Shown here one piece after another: positions 4,055 through 27,365 of a DNA stretch of 43,617 nt; the stretch's first letter is position 1; each line of letters opens with the position of its first letter. This DNA is from Thioalkalivibrio sp. (GTDB lineage Bacteria; Pseudomonadota; Gammaproteobacteria; Ectothiorhodospirales; Ectothiorhodospiraceae). The position numbers and the translations under genes are program-made. Location of the stretch: contig SKJG01000002.1 in the NCBI GenBank assembly GCA_007116035.1, positions 1 to 43,617 of the forward strand. Direction: 5' to 3'. A model generated the notes under the pieces. It was given only the letters and a program-made list of their open reading frames with translations. It ran no database searches and was not told the origin of the DNA.

Positions 4055-4074
4055 CCCGCAGGGCCCACTCGTCG

Positions 4075-4401
4075 TCAGGCGTGGCCAGCCGTCGGTGCGT
4101 CGTGCGTGGCCGTCTGCAGCGAACGCAGCGCCTGTTCCAGCACGTCGCGGGCCAGGCCCCGGGTCAGTTCGGGATTGGCGGGAATCATTTCCGTGCGCAC
4201 TGCGATGGCCATGGCGAGGGCCTGCAGCAGGTCACCATTGCGGGTTTCGCCCAGCAGTGCGATCTCGTGGTTCACGACCTCCAGGATACGATCCAGCAGC
4301 TGATGGACTCGCGTTGCGGAGCCGGTCTCGGGGTGCAGCCTGAATTCGAAGGAGATGGCATCCCCGGTCGGCGTGGTGAAATGGTATGGCAGATAGTCCA
4401 T
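4075..4401 (-). CDS. Uncharacterised 108-residue protein downstream of ubiG
   Basis: I do not recognise this protein. It begins MDYLPYHFTTPTGDAISFEF, with no signal peptide or membrane segment, and looks like a small soluble alpha/beta protein with helical stretches (VHQLLDRILEVVNHEIALL, GDLLQALAMAIAVRTEM). The ATG at 4401 is chosen over one 18 codons upstream because GGAGAAG lies directly before it and the longer form would overlap ubiG. It starts 28 bases after the ubiG stop and is probably cotranscribed with it. It converges with the sugar kinase, leaving 20 bases between the two stops. Confidence 0.7.
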   Translation of the reverse strand: MDYLPYHFTTPTGDAISFEFRLHPETGSATRVHQLLDRILEVVNHEIALLGETRNGDLLQALAMAIAVRTEMIPANPELTRGLARDVLEQALRSLQTATHDAPTAGHA

Positions 4402-4429
4402 GGTCTTCTCCAGGGTCGGGGAATCTTGG

Positions 4430-5191
4430 TCAGGTTCCGGTGGCGGAAGGAACATTCGCCATCAGCATGTAGTTGACGCCTTCGTAGCGCGTCAGGCGCA
4501 TCCGCCTGCTGATGGGGTTGACGGCAACCCCGGAGCGGGCAACGATGCGACAATCGGCCGCCTCGAGCGGCCAGGTCAGTTCGCGGGGCCGGACGAACCG
4601 GCGCCACTGATGGGTGCCTCGTGGCAGCACCCGAAAGATGTACTCGGCGCCGATGATGCCCGCGATGTAGGACGCCACGGTCCGGTTCAGGGTCGCCAGG
4701 ACGAGGAAACCGCCGGGCCGTACCTTCGCGAGGCAACGCTGGAGAAACGCCTGCGGGTCGACCACGTGCTCGATCACCTCCATGTTCAGGACCACGTCGA
4801 AGCCGTCCTCGGCGAGGTCCTCCAAGGCCACGTGACGGTATTCCACCGCAAGACCGCTGCCCTCGGCATGACTGCCCGCGACGATGATGTTGCGCGGCGT
4901 CACGTCGATTCCAAGGACCTCGGCCCCATGTCGCGCCATGCTCTCCGAGAGGATGCCGCCGCCGCAGCCAACGTCCAGCATCCTGAGCCCCGCCAGCGGG
5001 CGCTCGGCTTCGCCGTCCCGCTCCAGTTCGCGGGTCAGGTGCTCGACGATCCAGCCGGTGCGCAGCCGGTTCAGCACATGCAGGGGCCAGAACGGCCCCT
5101 CCTCGTCCCACCAGGTCTCGGCCAGCCGTTGATACCGCGCAACCTCCTCGGGATCGACGCTGGCGGCCTGTATGGACTGCGTTTCCGACAT
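4430..5191 (-). CDS. ubiG: Ubiquinone biosynthesis O-methyltransferase UbiG
   Basis: S-adenosylmethionine-dependent O-methyltransferase that performs both O-methylations of ubiquinone synthesis (253 residues). The family opening DPEEVARYQRLAETWWDEEGPF is at about 13-34. SAM motif I LDVGCGGG is at 72-79, the acidic loop VLGIDVTP at 92-99, then FDVVLNMEVIEHV and the characteristic ending RYEGVNYML. The ATG at 5191 is preferred; an upstream extension of 51 codons has no family similarity. With coq7 at 29.3 kb it shows an aerobic ubiquinone pathway. In Pseudomonas the next gene is the MurNAc-6-P phosphatase mupP; here an unknown small gene takes that place. Confidence 0.95.
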   Translation of the reverse strand: MSETQSIQAASVDPEEVARYQRLAETWWDEEGPFWPLHVLNRLRTGWIVEHLTRELERDGEAERPLAGLRMLDVGCGGGILSESMARHGAEVLGIDVTPRNIIVAGSHAEGSGLAVEYRHVALEDLAEDGFDVVLNMEVIEHVVDPQAFLQRCLAKVRPGGFLVLATLNRTVASYIAGIIGAEYIFRVLPRGTHQWRRFVRPRELTWPLEAADCRIVARSGVAVNPISRRMRLTRYEGVNYMLMANVPSATGT

Positions 5192-21459: not shown

Positions 21460-22121
21460 TCCTCGCCGCCGGGCGCGGCGAAAGGATGCGCCCGCTCACC
21501 GACCACACACCGAAGCCGCTGCTGACTGTCGGCGGCACCCCCCTGATCGAGCACACCATCCGGCGCCTGCGCGAGGCCGGTTACCGGGATCTGGTGATCA
21601 ACCTGGGGCACCTAGGGGAACGGATCGAGGCACGCCTCGGTGACGGCGGCGGTCTCGGCGTTCGCATCCGCTACTCGCGGGAGCCGCCGGGCGCACTGGA
21701 GACCGCCGGAGGCATCCGCGAAGCGCTGGATCTGCTTGGGTCCGGCACCTTTCTGGTGACCAACGCCGACCTCTGGTGCGATCACCCGTTGCGGCCCCCC
21801 GTCCTCGCCCCGGATGCGCTGGCGCACCTGGTGCTGGTGGCAAACCCCGAGCATCATCCACAGGGCGATTTCACGCTGCAGGAGGGCCGGGTGAGCCTCT
21901 CCGGAGGCCCCCGCCATACCTTCGCCGGCATCGGCTGGTACCGCCCCGGCCTGTTCGCCGACCTTCCCCGCGGCCGCCGGGCGCTGGCGCCGCTGCTGCG
22001 CGACGCCATCACCGCCGGACAGGTCACCGGCGAGATCCACCGGGATGGCTGGATCGACATCGGAACCCCCGAACGCTTGCGCCTGCTGGACCAAAAAAGA
22101 AACCCGGCAGGACCGGGTTGA
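21447..22121 (+). CDS. murU: N-acetylmuramate alpha-1-phosphate uridylyltransferase MurU
   Basis: Turns MurNAc-1-P into UDP-MurNAc, the last step of the AmgK-MurU bypass (224 residues). The nucleotidyltransferase signature MILAAGRGERMRPLT starts at residue 4, followed by PKPLLTVGGTPLIEH. FLVTNADLWCDH carries the metal-binding Asp, and late GWIDIGTPERL is family-typical. GTG at 21447 is preferred over ATG at 21456 because relatives have two residues between the start and MILAAG, and AGGG lies upstream. The gene starts inside the end of amgK. Its last codons contain a terminator acting on the opposite strand. Confidence 0.92.
   Translation: MHAMILAAGRGERMRPLTDHTPKPLLTVGGTPLIEHTIRRLREAGYRDLVINLGHLGERIEARLGDGGGLGVRIRYSREPPGALETAGGIREALDLLGSGTFLVTNADLWCDHPLRPPVLAPDALAHLVLVANPEHHPQGDFTLQEGRVSLSGGPRHTFAGIGWYRPGLFADLPRGRRALAPLLRDAITAGQVTGEIHRDGWIDIGTPERLRLLDQKRNPAGPG
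22093..22119 (-). terminator. Rho-independent terminator of the dsrE-like gene, inside the murU 3' end
   Basis: On the minus strand a 7-bp stem AACCCGG/CCGGGTT (22101-22107 with 22113-22119, loop of 5) is followed by TTC and a run of six T (22098-22093). It lies 50-75 bases beyond the stop at 22168. The same bases encode the last residues of murU on the plus strand. Confidence 0.8.
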
Positions 22122-22167: not shown

Positions 22168-22608
22168 TCAGGGCTTGATGTAGGTGTAGCCCTCGCGCTG
22201 CAGGATGGACAGTTGCGCGACACCGCTGAGGACGATGTCCGCCTCGGTCGTGTCGTACAGCGCTTCCATCGGCAGCTGGCGGGAAGTGAGTGTATTTTGG
22301 CAAACCTGGAAGTCCACGCCCTGCAGCTTCAGGCTGTCGACCGCGGACTGGATATCGGGGTTCTCGTTGGCGCCCAGCAGCAGGTTGATGCCGCCCCCGT
22401 GCATCACCAGCTTGATGTCCATGTTATCGGCGCCAACGGCATTGATGTGATTCTGCACGTTGCGCAGCGCCGCCATGTGCAGACCGGGGTCCCCCTGGTT
22501 CACGTGGTAGACCACCCGCGTCTTGTCCTCAGGCGTCGCGGCAACGGCCATGCCGGAGACGACCATCACCAGAACCAGCAGCAGTAAATGAATGGATTTC
22601 TTGTGCAT
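22168..22608 (-). CDS. Exported DsrE/DsrF-like protein
   Basis: A 146-residue protein with a signal peptide (MHKKSIHLLLLVLVMVVSGMAVA) and then one DsrE-fold domain of the COG1416 type. It shows RVVYHVNQGDPGLHMAALRN near the start, DIKLVMHGGGINLL, then VDFQVCQNTL with a single Cys103, and the characteristic ending LQREGYTYIKP. The ATG at 22608 has GGAGAGAGG just before it; a longer form 16 codons upstream has no support. DsrE-family proteins act in sulfur relay or bind sulfur species, but many are uncharacterised. It is the third gene after an ECF sigma factor and an anti-sigma factor with the same kind of domain, and ends in a clear terminator. Confidence 0.85.
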   Translation of the reverse strand: MHKKSIHLLLLVLVMVVSGMAVAATPEDKTRVVYHVNQGDPGLHMAALRNVQNHINAVGADNMDIKLVMHGGGINLLLGANENPDIQSAVDSLKLQGVDFQVCQNTLTSRQLPMEALYDTTEADIVLSGVAQLSILQREGYTYIKP

Positions 22609-22701
22609 TGCCTCTCTCTCCATCTCGATGAACGGCGGTGTCCGCCTGGTGATCACGGACGCGCACCGCGCCTGTGTACTGCCCGAATGGACAACGCCCC
22701 G

Positions 22702-23454
22702 TCACACCCGGATATACGTCCAGCCCTCCTGCTGTTTCTGTGCGGCCTCGCGCACACCCGATTCGACCTCCTCGACCCAGGGCAGCAATGGGACGGGGCG
22801 CCCCTCCTCGCGCTCGTGGCGTGCGCGCGATTGCGCGCAGGCGGTGACACGCAGGCCGTCGTAGGTGTGTACCAGATCCCGGATGCGGTTGGGGAAGGGC
22901 GCCAGGTCGGCGCGTACCAGATCCATCCCGGTTCCGTGCAGCACCATCTGCACCTCGAGTTGCTCGTCGTTGAGCCAGGCCGTCTCGAACATGTGTTCGA
23001 TATCATCGAAGAGGGCCTCGGCGTCGCGCAGATCCACGTCGGTCACGTGAAACAGCACCCGTCGAACGTCCGTGACCGGCCCGATTTCCCCGCCCGCTGC
23101 CGGATCCCGCTCCTGGGGCACCAGCGCAACCTGCTGCAGATCCACCGATTGCTCGCGGGTCACCTCGAGCACGGCCACCGTGCCCAGTGCCAGCGCGACC
23201 ACGCTCGCGGCAATGGCCACCAATCCGCCGCCCAGCCGCCTCCCCTTGCGCGTGGAGCGCCGGTTGGGATCGGGGATGGAGCCCTGGCTGTAGGCCATGT
23301 TCACCAGCTCCTTGAGCTGGTACATGTCACAGACCTCGCGGCTGAGATTCTCGCTGGCCGCGATGGATTTGAGCGTCAACAGGCGGTCTTCGGACGAAAA
23401 TTCCCCATCCACGAACGCATTCAGGATCTCGTCGCTGGGCCGCGGATCACTCAC
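22702..23454 (-). CDS. Anti-sigma factor with extracytoplasmic DsrE-like sensor domain
   Basis: A 250-residue membrane protein in three parts. The cytoplasmic part (1-72) has the anti-sigma opening DEILNAFVDGEFSSEDRL and a helix with EVCDMYQLKELV; it lacks the HxxxCxxC zinc motif of ZAS domains. One membrane segment is at about 75-97 (GGGLVAIAASVVALALGTVAV). The outer part (about 130-250) aligns with the DsrE-like gene next door: RRVLFHVTDVD, VQMVLHGTGMDLV, VTACAQS with Cys206, and the ending QQEGWTYIRV. GTG at 23454 overlaps the sigma stop by 8 bases. The function as an anti-sigma factor is inferred from position and the N-terminal part. Confidence 0.8.
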   Translation of the reverse strand: MSDPRPSDEILNAFVDGEFSSEDRLLTLKSIAASENLSREVCDMYQLKELVNMAYSQGSIPDPNRRSTRKGRRLGGGLVAIAASVVALALGTVAVLEVTREQSVDLQQVALVPQERDPAAGGEIGPVTDVRRVLFHVTDVDLRDAEALFDDIEHMFETAWLNDEQLEVQMVLHGTGMDLVRADLAPFPNRIRDLVHTYDGLRVTACAQSRARHEREEGRPVPLLPWVEEVESGVREAAQKQQEGWTYIRV

Positions 23455-23992
23455 GATGCGTTCTCACCAGCCGCAGCGTCGGCGACTCCGGGGCAGCCTG
23501 CTCCAGCAGCAGCTTGCGCAACTGCGCGCGCGCCCGGCTCAGGCGGCTCATCACGGTCCCGATCGGAACCTCCAGCACCTCGGAGACCTCCGCGTAGGCG
23601 AAGCCCTCGAGATCCACCAGTGCCACCACCTGGCGATGATCGTCGCTCAACTGGGCCATCGCCCGACGAACGTCCTGCACGACACGATTGCGGTCGGTCT
23701 GGATTTCGGGGCAGTCATCGCAGGGAAGATCCATGGAATCCACGTCCACGGTATCCTTCTGCCGCCGACCCCAGTCGCGGTAACAGTTGGTCATGATCCG
23801 AAAGACCCAGGCCTTCAGCGCGGCCTCATCCTGCAGGGTCTTCAGACGTGTCAATGCCTTCATCATCGCTTCCTGGACCAGGTCATCGGCCAGAGCGGCG
23901 TCGTGGCACCAGGCAAAAGCGGTCCGGTAGAGCTGCGGACGCATGTCGCATACCTGCTGCCGCAAACGTCGCTGTGCGAGCCACGTTGCCAT
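23447..23992 (-). CDS. ECF-type RNA polymerase sigma factor
   Basis: Group IV sigma-70 factor of 181 residues. Region 2 (about 20-80) has DDLVQEAMMKALTRL and WVFRIMTNCYRDWGRR. Region 4 (about 112-162) has LSDDHRQVVALVDLEGFAYAEVSEVLEVPIGTVMSRLSRARAQL compressed into the usual helix-turn-helix. The linker holds a CDDC motif (91-94). The ATG at 23992 follows GAGGAGAA at good spacing; an ATG five codons earlier is less likely. It overlaps the anti-sigma gene by 8 bases, the usual sign of a sigma/anti-sigma pair. A candidate ECF promoter lies 54-82 bases upstream, so autoregulation is likely. Confidence 0.93.
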   Translation of the reverse strand: MATWLAQRRLRQQVCDMRPQLYRTAFAWCHDAALADDLVQEAMMKALTRLKTLQDEAALKAWVFRIMTNCYRDWGRRQKDTVDVDSMDLPCDDCPEIQTDRNRVVQDVRRAMAQLSDDHRQVVALVDLEGFAYAEVSEVLEVPIGTVMSRLSRARAQLRKLLLEQAAPESPTLRLVRTHRE

Positions 23993-24045
23993 CAGTTTTC
24001 TCCTCACCCGACCGTCGTAGCGGCCTTGCTTGTTCTTGTTCGCTG

Positions 24046-24074
24046 TTAGACGCTAGCCATGAAGGCCGTATTCC
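24046..24074 (-). promoter_or_regulatory. Candidate ECF-sigma-dependent promoter for the sigma operon
   Basis: On the minus strand GGAAT (24074-24070), a 17-base spacer, then CGTCTAA (24052-24046). This fits the GGAAC / CGTC-type bipartite promoters used by many ECF factors, with one mismatch in the -35. Transcription would start near 24039, about 47 bases before the sigma ATG. It lies in the gap shared with a divergent operon. Confidence 0.55.
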
Positions 24075-27288: not shown

Positions 27289-27365
27289 TGGTGGCTACGC
27301 CCTGATTCGAACAGGGGACCCCATCATTATGAGTGATGTGCTCTAACCAGCTGAGCTACGTAGCC
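27289..27365 (-). tRNA. tRNA-Met (anticodon CAT), elongator type
   Basis: The acceptor stem pairs GGCTACG with CGTAGCC; the discriminator A and CCA end are encoded (27292-27289). The D arm contains AGCTCAGCTGGTTAGAGC. The anticodon stem CATCA/TGATG encloses the loop CTCATAA with anticodon CAT. The T arm has the GTTCGAATC core. A G1-C72 pair and this D loop argue for elongator rather than initiator tRNA; a C34-lysidine isoleucine tRNA is a less likely alternative. Confidence 0.93.

Follow-up and report, generated by a model that had tools for sequence, protein, structure and literature searches.

Class I anti-sigma factors of the RseA/MucA type consist of a cytoplasmic helical domain, one transmembrane helix, and a periplasmic domain, and their genes come after those of the sigma factors. 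DsrE-like proteins are sulfur-relay proteins. In Alphaproteobacteria, pairs of an extracytoplasmic function (ECF) sigma factor and an anti-sigma factor belonging to the sulfite response have been described in Sinorhizobium meliloti (RpoE4/SMc04050) and Starkeya novella (PMC3511301, PMC6527743). The sox genes of Hyphomicrobium denitrificans are controlled by SoxR, an ArsR-type repressor that senses sulfane sulfur via cysteines (PMC10451225) and is served by the membrane protein SoxT1B as a signal transduction unit; the 2024 paper on SoxT1B calls the sensing of external sulfur by regulators poorly understood (PMC11582611). Here we describe a three-gene module of Thioalkalivibrio sp. (contig SKJG01000002.1, analyzed as a window of 43,617 nt, the whole stretch of DNA considered) that encodes an ECF sigma factor, an anti-sigma factor with a predicted DsrE-fold outer domain, and an exported DsrE-family protein. 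It is probably a new variant of ECF/anti-sigma signaling that is widespread among Gammaproteobacteria with Sox. Its predicted regulon is sox, and Cys206 of the anti-sigma factor is the residue that probably senses sulfur.

The module lies at 22168-23992, on the minus strand throughout; all coordinates are positions in the window. Its parts are as follows:

23992 (ATG) to 23447, minus strand: ECF sigma factor gene, 181 aa, above the Pfam and TIGR02937 cut-offs
23454 (GTG) to 22702, minus strand: anti-sigma factor gene with a DsrE-fold outer domain, 250 aa, based on its translation and found in 34 of 47 own-family genomes
22608 (ATG) to 22168, minus strand: gene for an exported DsrE-family protein, 146 aa with a Sec-type leader, based on PF02635 and AlphaFold
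23263..23445, minus strand: predicted cytoplasmic anti-sigma domain, helical, residues 4-64 (low AlphaFold confidence)
23167..23226, minus strand: predicted transmembrane helix, residues about 77-96 (hydropathy and AlphaFold)
22705..23067, minus strand: predicted periplasmic DsrE-fold domain, residues 130-250 (profile comparison, AlphaFold, Foldseek)
22837..22839, minus strand: codon of Cys206 of the anti-sigma factor, invariant and aligned with a cysteine of MTH1491 and ST0148
22300..22302, minus strand: codon of Cys103 of the exported DsrE protein, aligned with anti-sigma Cys206
24046..24074, minus strand: predicted autoregulatory ECF promoter, GGAATA-N16-CGTCTAA, starting 82 nt upstream of the sigma ATG

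The 8-nt overlap of the sigma and anti-sigma genes, the 93-nt gap before the exported DsrE gene, and the numbering of Cys206 and Cys103, all claimed in a first-pass annotation of this DNA, agree with these gene coordinates. The sigma gene has an alternative start, GTG, at 24007. Its product belongs to the ECF sigma factors, which hold sigma-70 regions 2 and 4 only, as it matches Sigma70_r2 (E 1.8e-13, 50.5 bits against a cut-off of 24), Sigma70_r4_2 (E 7.3e-15, 54.8 against 25.7), and TIGR02937 sigma70-ECF (92.1 against 42.9).

The reading that we favor, at a probability of about 0.7, is that the module acts across the envelope as a sulfur switch for the Sox thiosulfate-oxidation genes. Starting from the gene layout, the fold, the conservation of the cysteine, the conserved promoter, and the placement of that promoter upstream of sox genes in carriers, all of them computed, we infer how such a switch would work. 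Judging from gene order and domains, the N-terminal cytoplasmic domain of the anti-sigma factor would hold the ECF sigma factor at the membrane. The periplasmic DsrE-fold domain would be the sensor for reduced sulfur outside the cell, whether thiosulfate, polysulfide, or sulfane sulfur on one of its carriers (SoxYZ, a rhodanese, or the exported DsrE protein). Cys206 would then be modified or ligated, persulfidation or ligation being the favored signal because of the relay role of DsrE proteins, the periplasmic thiosulfate regulon, and the unvarying cysteine, and the anti-sigma factor would let go of the sigma factor, either directly or through cleavage. The freed sigma factor would transcribe its own operon (sigma, anti-sigma, exported DsrE) together with sox genes; in the own genome, these targets would be soxYZ, soxA, and a gene for an exported rhodanese, and in other families soxB and soxX. 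As a member of this regulon, the exported DsrE protein may act as a soluble partner, supplying the sensor with sulfur or draining it. A more specific version, a trans-membrane receptor common among sulfur-oxidizing Gammaproteobacteria in which a sulfur-relay domain has become the anti-sigma sensor and is charged on Cys206 by SoxYZ, the rhodanese, and the exported DsrE protein, whose genes it would itself control, is tentative, and we rate it at somewhat below even odds. If it were true, RNA polymerase would be informed of Sox flux while the sulfur itself stayed outside the cell.

Fold and conserved residues of the anti-sigma factor

The first-pass annotation held that the outer half of the anti-sigma factor resembles the exported protein, and profile comparison bears this out. 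Alignments of the two families match in hhalign (98.7%, E 4.2e-16) over residues 128-250, with Cys206 falling on Cys103, and the anti-sigma family profile finds MTH1491 (1l1s) at E 2.5e-13, or at 6.1e-21 when built from a more diverse alignment. The structure prediction proposed in advance as a check on residues 130-250 also returned a DsrE fold: AlphaFold block means are 93-97 over residues 131-250, and the top three Foldseek matches of the outer domain are 1l1s (E 2.8e-9, template modeling score 0.89 by target), 2pd2, and 8uja. A chance resemblance to DsrE was considered and is ruled out by hhalign, the 1l1s profile match, and Foldseek. Pfam's own DsrE model, PF02635, scores 19.2 bits on this half (E 0.0014), below its gathering score of 22.7, and reaches E 0.01 in 9 of 18 own-family members. 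Because it falls under the gathering score, we treat the outer domain as a DsrE-fold homologue, of common descent with DsrE proteins, and not as a curated member of PF02635.

A single hydrophobic stretch (residues ~77-96, hydropathy peak 2.6) is preceded by basic residues and includes a low-confidence AlphaFold helix at 81-95; on this predicted topology, the DsrE-fold domain would be periplasmic. Inside that domain, Cys206 is modeled at the end of strand 201-206, just before helix 207-217, which would be a usual place for a reactive thiol. Every own-family row extending to this position has the residue (33 of 33), as do 39/39 rows of the diverse alignment (the window protein among them), where Gly244 and Trp245 are likewise found in 39/39 and His136 in 38/39. 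The cysteine aligned with it is retained in MTH1491 and ST0148. Across 31 diverse members, with identity down to 22%, the sole invariant residues are Ala13, Asp16, Cys206, Gly244, and Trp245.

For the N-terminal domain, which in class I anti-sigma factors has three to four helices, the signal from family models is faint. Helices are predicted at low confidence over residues 1-60 (block means 51-68); at E 0.01, the 31 members match zf-HC2 in 5 cases, RseA_N in 1, and NF052375 in 9; and a profile search with the anti-sigma family weakly reaches MucA (E 0.32) and an RseA N-terminal domain protein (E 0.39). The motif around Asp16 seems to resemble helix 1 of RseA. In that helix, Asp11 is named as a sigma factor contact in a survey of class I anti-sigma factors (PMC7406223).

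The exported protein is a PF02635 member (E 1.1e-11, 45.3 bits against the gathering score of 22.7) with a hydrophobic leader ending AVA-A. Its AlphaFold model has a mean predicted local distance difference test score of 88.5, and its top three Foldseek matches in the PDB are the same as those of the anti-sigma outer domain, with a template modeling score of 0.91 by target for 1l1s. Cys206 and Cys103 had both been put forward as candidate contact residues. The former is invariant throughout; the latter is replaced by Ser in loci L049 and L052 and by Glu in L120, which makes an essential role of Cys103 in that protein less likely.

Distribution of the module and its gene neighborhood

Both halves of the anti-sigma factor were found in 34 of the 47 own-family genomes, namely in 28/30 of the own genus, 0/10 of a sister genus, and 1/1, 5/5, and 0/1 of three other genera. 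This count includes G028, whose anti-sigma gene lies in two pieces on two contigs, and leaves outside a 35th genome, G033, which has a short N-terminal match only. Of 369 class genomes sampled, 83 match at E 1e-9 and 64 were counted as carriers of the architecture: G000 (the own genome), G020, and 62 others, 57 of which match from near the start and five of which do not (G229, G335, G389, G094, G334). The spread over family and class rules out a locally acquired oddity. To look for the full architecture beyond the class, 398 genomes sampled from the phylum were scanned at E 1e-15, with no more than 6 candidates scored in each. Matches covering both halves from near the start came from G000, G612, and G663, all of the own class, and those in other classes start at profile position 61 or later, except for G707, which matches by the front part only. 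All 26 named relatives from the genome scan are labeled Thioalkalivibrio, the closest (96% identity) being on contig PUOZ01000101.1 of a metagenome-assembled genome; calling the class Gammaproteobacteria rests on these labels.

The sigma gene adjoins the anti-sigma gene in 28/29 own-family loci and in 35 of 36 further two-half loci (33 from other families and 3 own-family paralogue loci); one exception is a contig that starts inside the anti-sigma gene, and the other lies at a contig edge. The module thus shows the arrangement of class I anti-sigma factors, whose genes neighbor those of their sigma factors. The exported DsrE gene lies downstream in 23 of the 29 own-family loci, with 5 lacking a match there and 1 cut. 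In the own-family genomes without it that were read, the next gene is a convergent nucleotidyltransferase. A standalone DsrE gene is directly downstream or divergent in 21 of the 36 further loci (19 by an adjacency rule, plus L110 and L119 by coordinates). Of the triad expected to recur in other genomes, the sigma/anti-sigma pair does recur and the exported third gene is not universal, the 5 own-family loci without it ruling out a universal three-gene module. Because its gene is absent from some loci and its cysteine is sometimes missing, the exported protein would seem to be a helper rather than an essential part.

Carriage of the module goes together with Sox. SoxB occurs in 63 of the 64 carriers and in 87 of the 305 other class genomes (p 6.5e-28, uncorrected for descent), or in 58/59 against 92/310 once the five carriers whose match does not start near the beginning are removed. 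In G201, G212, and G311, only a few kb separate the module from soxB.

These observations bear on a different role for the outer domain. The same switch and the same sox regulon might operate with a DsrE domain that does not itself react with sulfur and instead docks a protein, either SoxYZ or the exported DsrE protein, the latter then being the true sensor; the signal would be contact between the proteins. DsrE-family proteins commonly form homo- and hetero-oligomers, and the exported partner shares the fold and sits in the operon or, where divergent, often has a promoter site of its own (at least 15 bits in 9 of 13 such divergent standalone genes). Against docking stand the invariance of Cys206 and the exported partner not being found at 5/29 own-family and 15/36 further loci. 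We regard docking as rather unlikely.

Several relatives of the module's genes were also seen. Loci L115 and L117 carry two tandem pairs of sigma and DsrE-anti-sigma genes plus one downstream and one divergent DsrE gene, which suggests duplication and specialization. Second DsrE-anti-sigma paralogues, ~30% identical and with sigma genes of their own, occur at L130, L131, and L132, and such paralogues match in 7 own-family genomes. In the own genome, a short orphan relative of the anti-sigma N-domain without a DsrE match (L147:6093-6371, on G000:C32) lies near a guanylate-kinase-like gene and is possibly a soluble anti-sigma factor; matches to the N-domain only occur in 10 other own-genus genomes. 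A DsrE-like gene stands beside a second soxY copy that lacks an ECF site (G000:C134:3490-3828 and 4074-4529).

Two other features of the window are these:

22101..22119, minus strand: terminator-like hairpin with T-run 3' of the operon, overlapping the end of the convergent gene
27289-27365, minus strand: tRNA-Met (CAT) gene

The first corresponds to a terminator proposed at the end of the exported DsrE gene; the hairpin and T-run are present, but with 1 hit in the scan where 1.6 are expected by chance, the hit by itself does not exceed chance.

Predicted promoters of the operon and of sox genes

The pattern GGAATA-N16-CGTCYWA is present in all 32 distinct own-family sigma upstream regions, and a promoter so conserved upstream of the sigma gene suggests a self-activating ECF operon. 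Genome-wide, the exact pattern occurs in all 34 own-family genomes with the anti-sigma factor (one occurrence in 23 of them, two in 11) and in a single one of the 13 without it; in the own genome, the window promoter is the sole exact match. Among 37 further sigma upstream regions, 34 have a literal GGAATA before a CGTC-like box at N15-16, and the remaining three read GAAATA, GGAAAA, and GGATTT. A promoter matrix was re-trained over three rounds on sigma upstream regions with no sox sequence included, and since it was trained on them, its scores for those regions are partly circular.

The first-pass annotation had suggested that the module could sense sulfane sulfur or another periplasmic thiol ligand, and the sulfur idea is supported by the predicted targets, which are sox genes. 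In the own genome, the shorter pattern GGAATA-N16-CGTC lies at the operon, upstream of soxY and soxZ (C180), upstream of soxA (C83), and upstream of an exported rhodanese gene (C179). SoxA, SoxY, and SoxZ score above NCBIfam cut-offs and the rhodanese above that of Pfam; soxA is followed by a heme-motif protein, probably soxX, whose gene is cut by the locus end and gave no model match. In the own genus, 22 of the 28 carrier genomes were examined (G025 was viewed separately), and every one of the 22 shows a site scoring 13 bits or higher at 93-114 nt before soxY; in 13 of them the score is 17 bits or higher. None of 9 genomes from the sister genus, which lacks the anti-sigma factor, shows such a site (best score 5.9 bits). 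G043 and G045 instead have a site upstream of soxB.

Predicted control of sox genes extends beyond the genus. Among 20 exact off-operon sites in 19 class regions, 6 are upstream of soxB or soxX (G128 twice, G355, G307, G271, G377), and one each precedes a sulfur-transport family gene, a SoxB-like nucleotidase gene, and a desulfoferrodoxin-like gene. We then scanned SoxB loci with the matrix, trained on sigma promoters only, in 58 carriers (59 loci) and 34 non-carriers. The carriers are 58 of the 61 with SoxB beyond G000 and G020 (G176, G334, and G314 were left out) and include five sox loci already seen by the exact pattern (G128, G355, G307, G271, G377). The non-carriers are 34 of 87 with SoxB, picked by listing order and availability. 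Six of them have a DsrE-only match, G343 belongs to a carrier genus and may be a missed carrier, and G136 and G303, which seem to be carriers divided by contig ends, were kept as non-carriers. At 17 bits, 31 sites turn up in the 545 kb of carrier sequence. Of these, 24 stand no more than 600 nt upstream of soxB (16) or soxX (8), spread over 20 of the 59 loci; of the other 7, 3 fit the sigma operon itself. The non-carriers have no site at this threshold in 264 kb (0/34 loci), with shorter flanks in 14 of their 34 loci and 34 kb of upstream space against 71 kb in the carriers. At 13 bits, there are 31 near-sox sites in 22/59 carrier loci against 1 site in 1/34 non-carrier loci. Permuted matrices gave a mean of 0.08 near-sox sites and a maximum of 3 in 300 trials, and the reversed matrix gave 1. 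The difference has a Fisher p of 2.6e-5 by locus and 1.4e-4 by family (13/35 against 0/28), shared ancestry being handled by collapsing to families only and 12 of the 34 non-carriers coming from families that also hold carriers.

A number of results weigh against a sulfur switch with a sox regulon, and most of them concern the sites. The exact pattern occurs 42 times in the 62 carriers and its reversed control 33 times, so many off-operon matches must be chance, and 11 of the 20 off-operon sites have no clear sulfur link. The four matches of the shorter pattern in the own genome, against 1 for the reversed control and ~6 expected by simple base counting, are no excess, so that their number is not evidence and only their location informs. 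Sites are also missing where they might be looked for: G011 has none at soxY, the own-genome soxB locus has none, and neither do the second soxY copies in the own genome and in G036. Nine of the 22 genus soxY sites score below 17 bits, including that of the own genome (14.7 bits). At 17 bits, 39 of the 59 carrier sox loci lack a sox-upstream site, which means that control of sox either does not extend to every carrier or acts indirectly at these loci, and at 13 bits one non-carrier sox locus does have one. Other ECF sigma factors might share the promoter. On the protein side, the window anti-sigma N-domain matches no Pfam model and passes no curated family cut-off, and a lone conserved cysteine would be no proof of sulfur transfer. 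A very broad regulon, entertained separately, is ruled out by the small excess of pattern matches over the control (42 against 33 in 62 genomes).

The module might instead answer envelope thiol, oxidative, or metal stress, with the sox genes as bystanders or as some of many targets. Many ECF systems are stress systems, the rhodanese target lies beside a DsbA-like gene, and no sulfur link is apparent for the majority of the exact matches inspected off the operons. Yet sox genes recur as predicted targets, and SoxB is nearly always present in carriers; we think a stress system distinctly unlikely. Slightly less probable still is that another ECF sigma factor reads the sox promoters, with the DsrE module regulating nothing but its own operon. 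Upstream of the rhodanese target there does lie a second, related ECF sigma gene, but no copy of the promoter is stronger or better conserved than the DsrE module's own, and non-carrier sox loci have no sites at 17 bits. Least probable, and by a good way improbable, is a DsrE domain that is a fossil, a carrier domain once captured by an anti-sigma factor and without a sensing role, with release by regulated proteolysis on general envelope cues: such release is the rule for RseA-like anti-sigma factors, but invariant Cys, Gly, and Trp residues are kept in 31 members down to 22% identity.

Three loci deserve description in their own right. On G000:C179 (L188, L381), the second ECF sigma gene is followed by the gene for the DsbA-like protein and then by that for the exported rhodanese, with the GGAATA-N16-CGTC site immediately past the DsbA-like gene; no anti-sigma gene was seen for this sigma factor within the 3-kb stretch read. 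At L230 (G294:C17), in a carrier genome, the exact ECF pattern stands 46 nt upstream of the sulfur-transport gene (PF04143, TsuA-like), an arrangement reminiscent of the SoxT story. At L238 (G140:C6), an ECF site divergent from the sigma operon precedes the SoxB-like nucleotidase family gene, which is under the SoxB cut-off.

Comparison with known systems

We recognized neither an anti-sigma factor with a DsrE domain nor an ECF sigma factor for sox genes in the literature searched, from which subscription journals were mostly absent. The nearest papers (PMC12563154, PMC2147049, PMC10512742, PMC7451513, PMC5744179) describe no such module in their accessible portions. DsrE is absent from the main text of the survey of class I anti-sigma factors that scanned Pfam domains (PMC7406223), and because the domain is below the Pfam cut-off, a DsrE anti-sigma factor could easily be missed by it. 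If the sulfur switch proposed here is real, food sulfur outside the cell would be sensed in a new way. For Gammaproteobacteria, in which Sox is common, the module offers a concrete candidate sensor together with a predicted sox regulon. ECF signaling would gain a class of sensor and exported DsrE-like proteins a role, and the module would supply a part for a thiosulfate or polysulfide biosensor.

Compared with RseA/MucA-type factors, the window anti-sigma factor has the same predicted layout and differs in its periplasmic part, which here has the predicted DsrE fold. With the MTH1491-type DsrE/DsrF-like proteins (1l1s, 2pd2), it has the fold and the conserved cysteine in common, but those proteins are free-standing (108-113 residues in the PDB chains) and the window domain is fused to an anti-sigma domain. 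The sulfite-response ECF pairs have a self-activated operon, a sulfur compound as signal (sulfite; thiosulfate), and control of sulfur oxidation (sorT) (PMC3511301, PMC6527743), features that the module would share. They differ in that their target is a sulfite oxidase and that their anti-sigma factors, of the ECF26 group, are named COG5662, with no DsrE domain mentioned in the accessible portions of those papers; the module described here has a predicted DsrE sensor and predicted sox targets. No module protein matches an ArsR-type family at E 1 in a Pfam scan, which sets the module apart from SoxR-type regulators. Control of sox genes by sulfane sulfur through cysteines would be common to SoxR and to our proposal, but SoxR is a DNA-binding repressor, whereas the module would be a trans-membrane sigma switch with its predicted sensor outside the cell.

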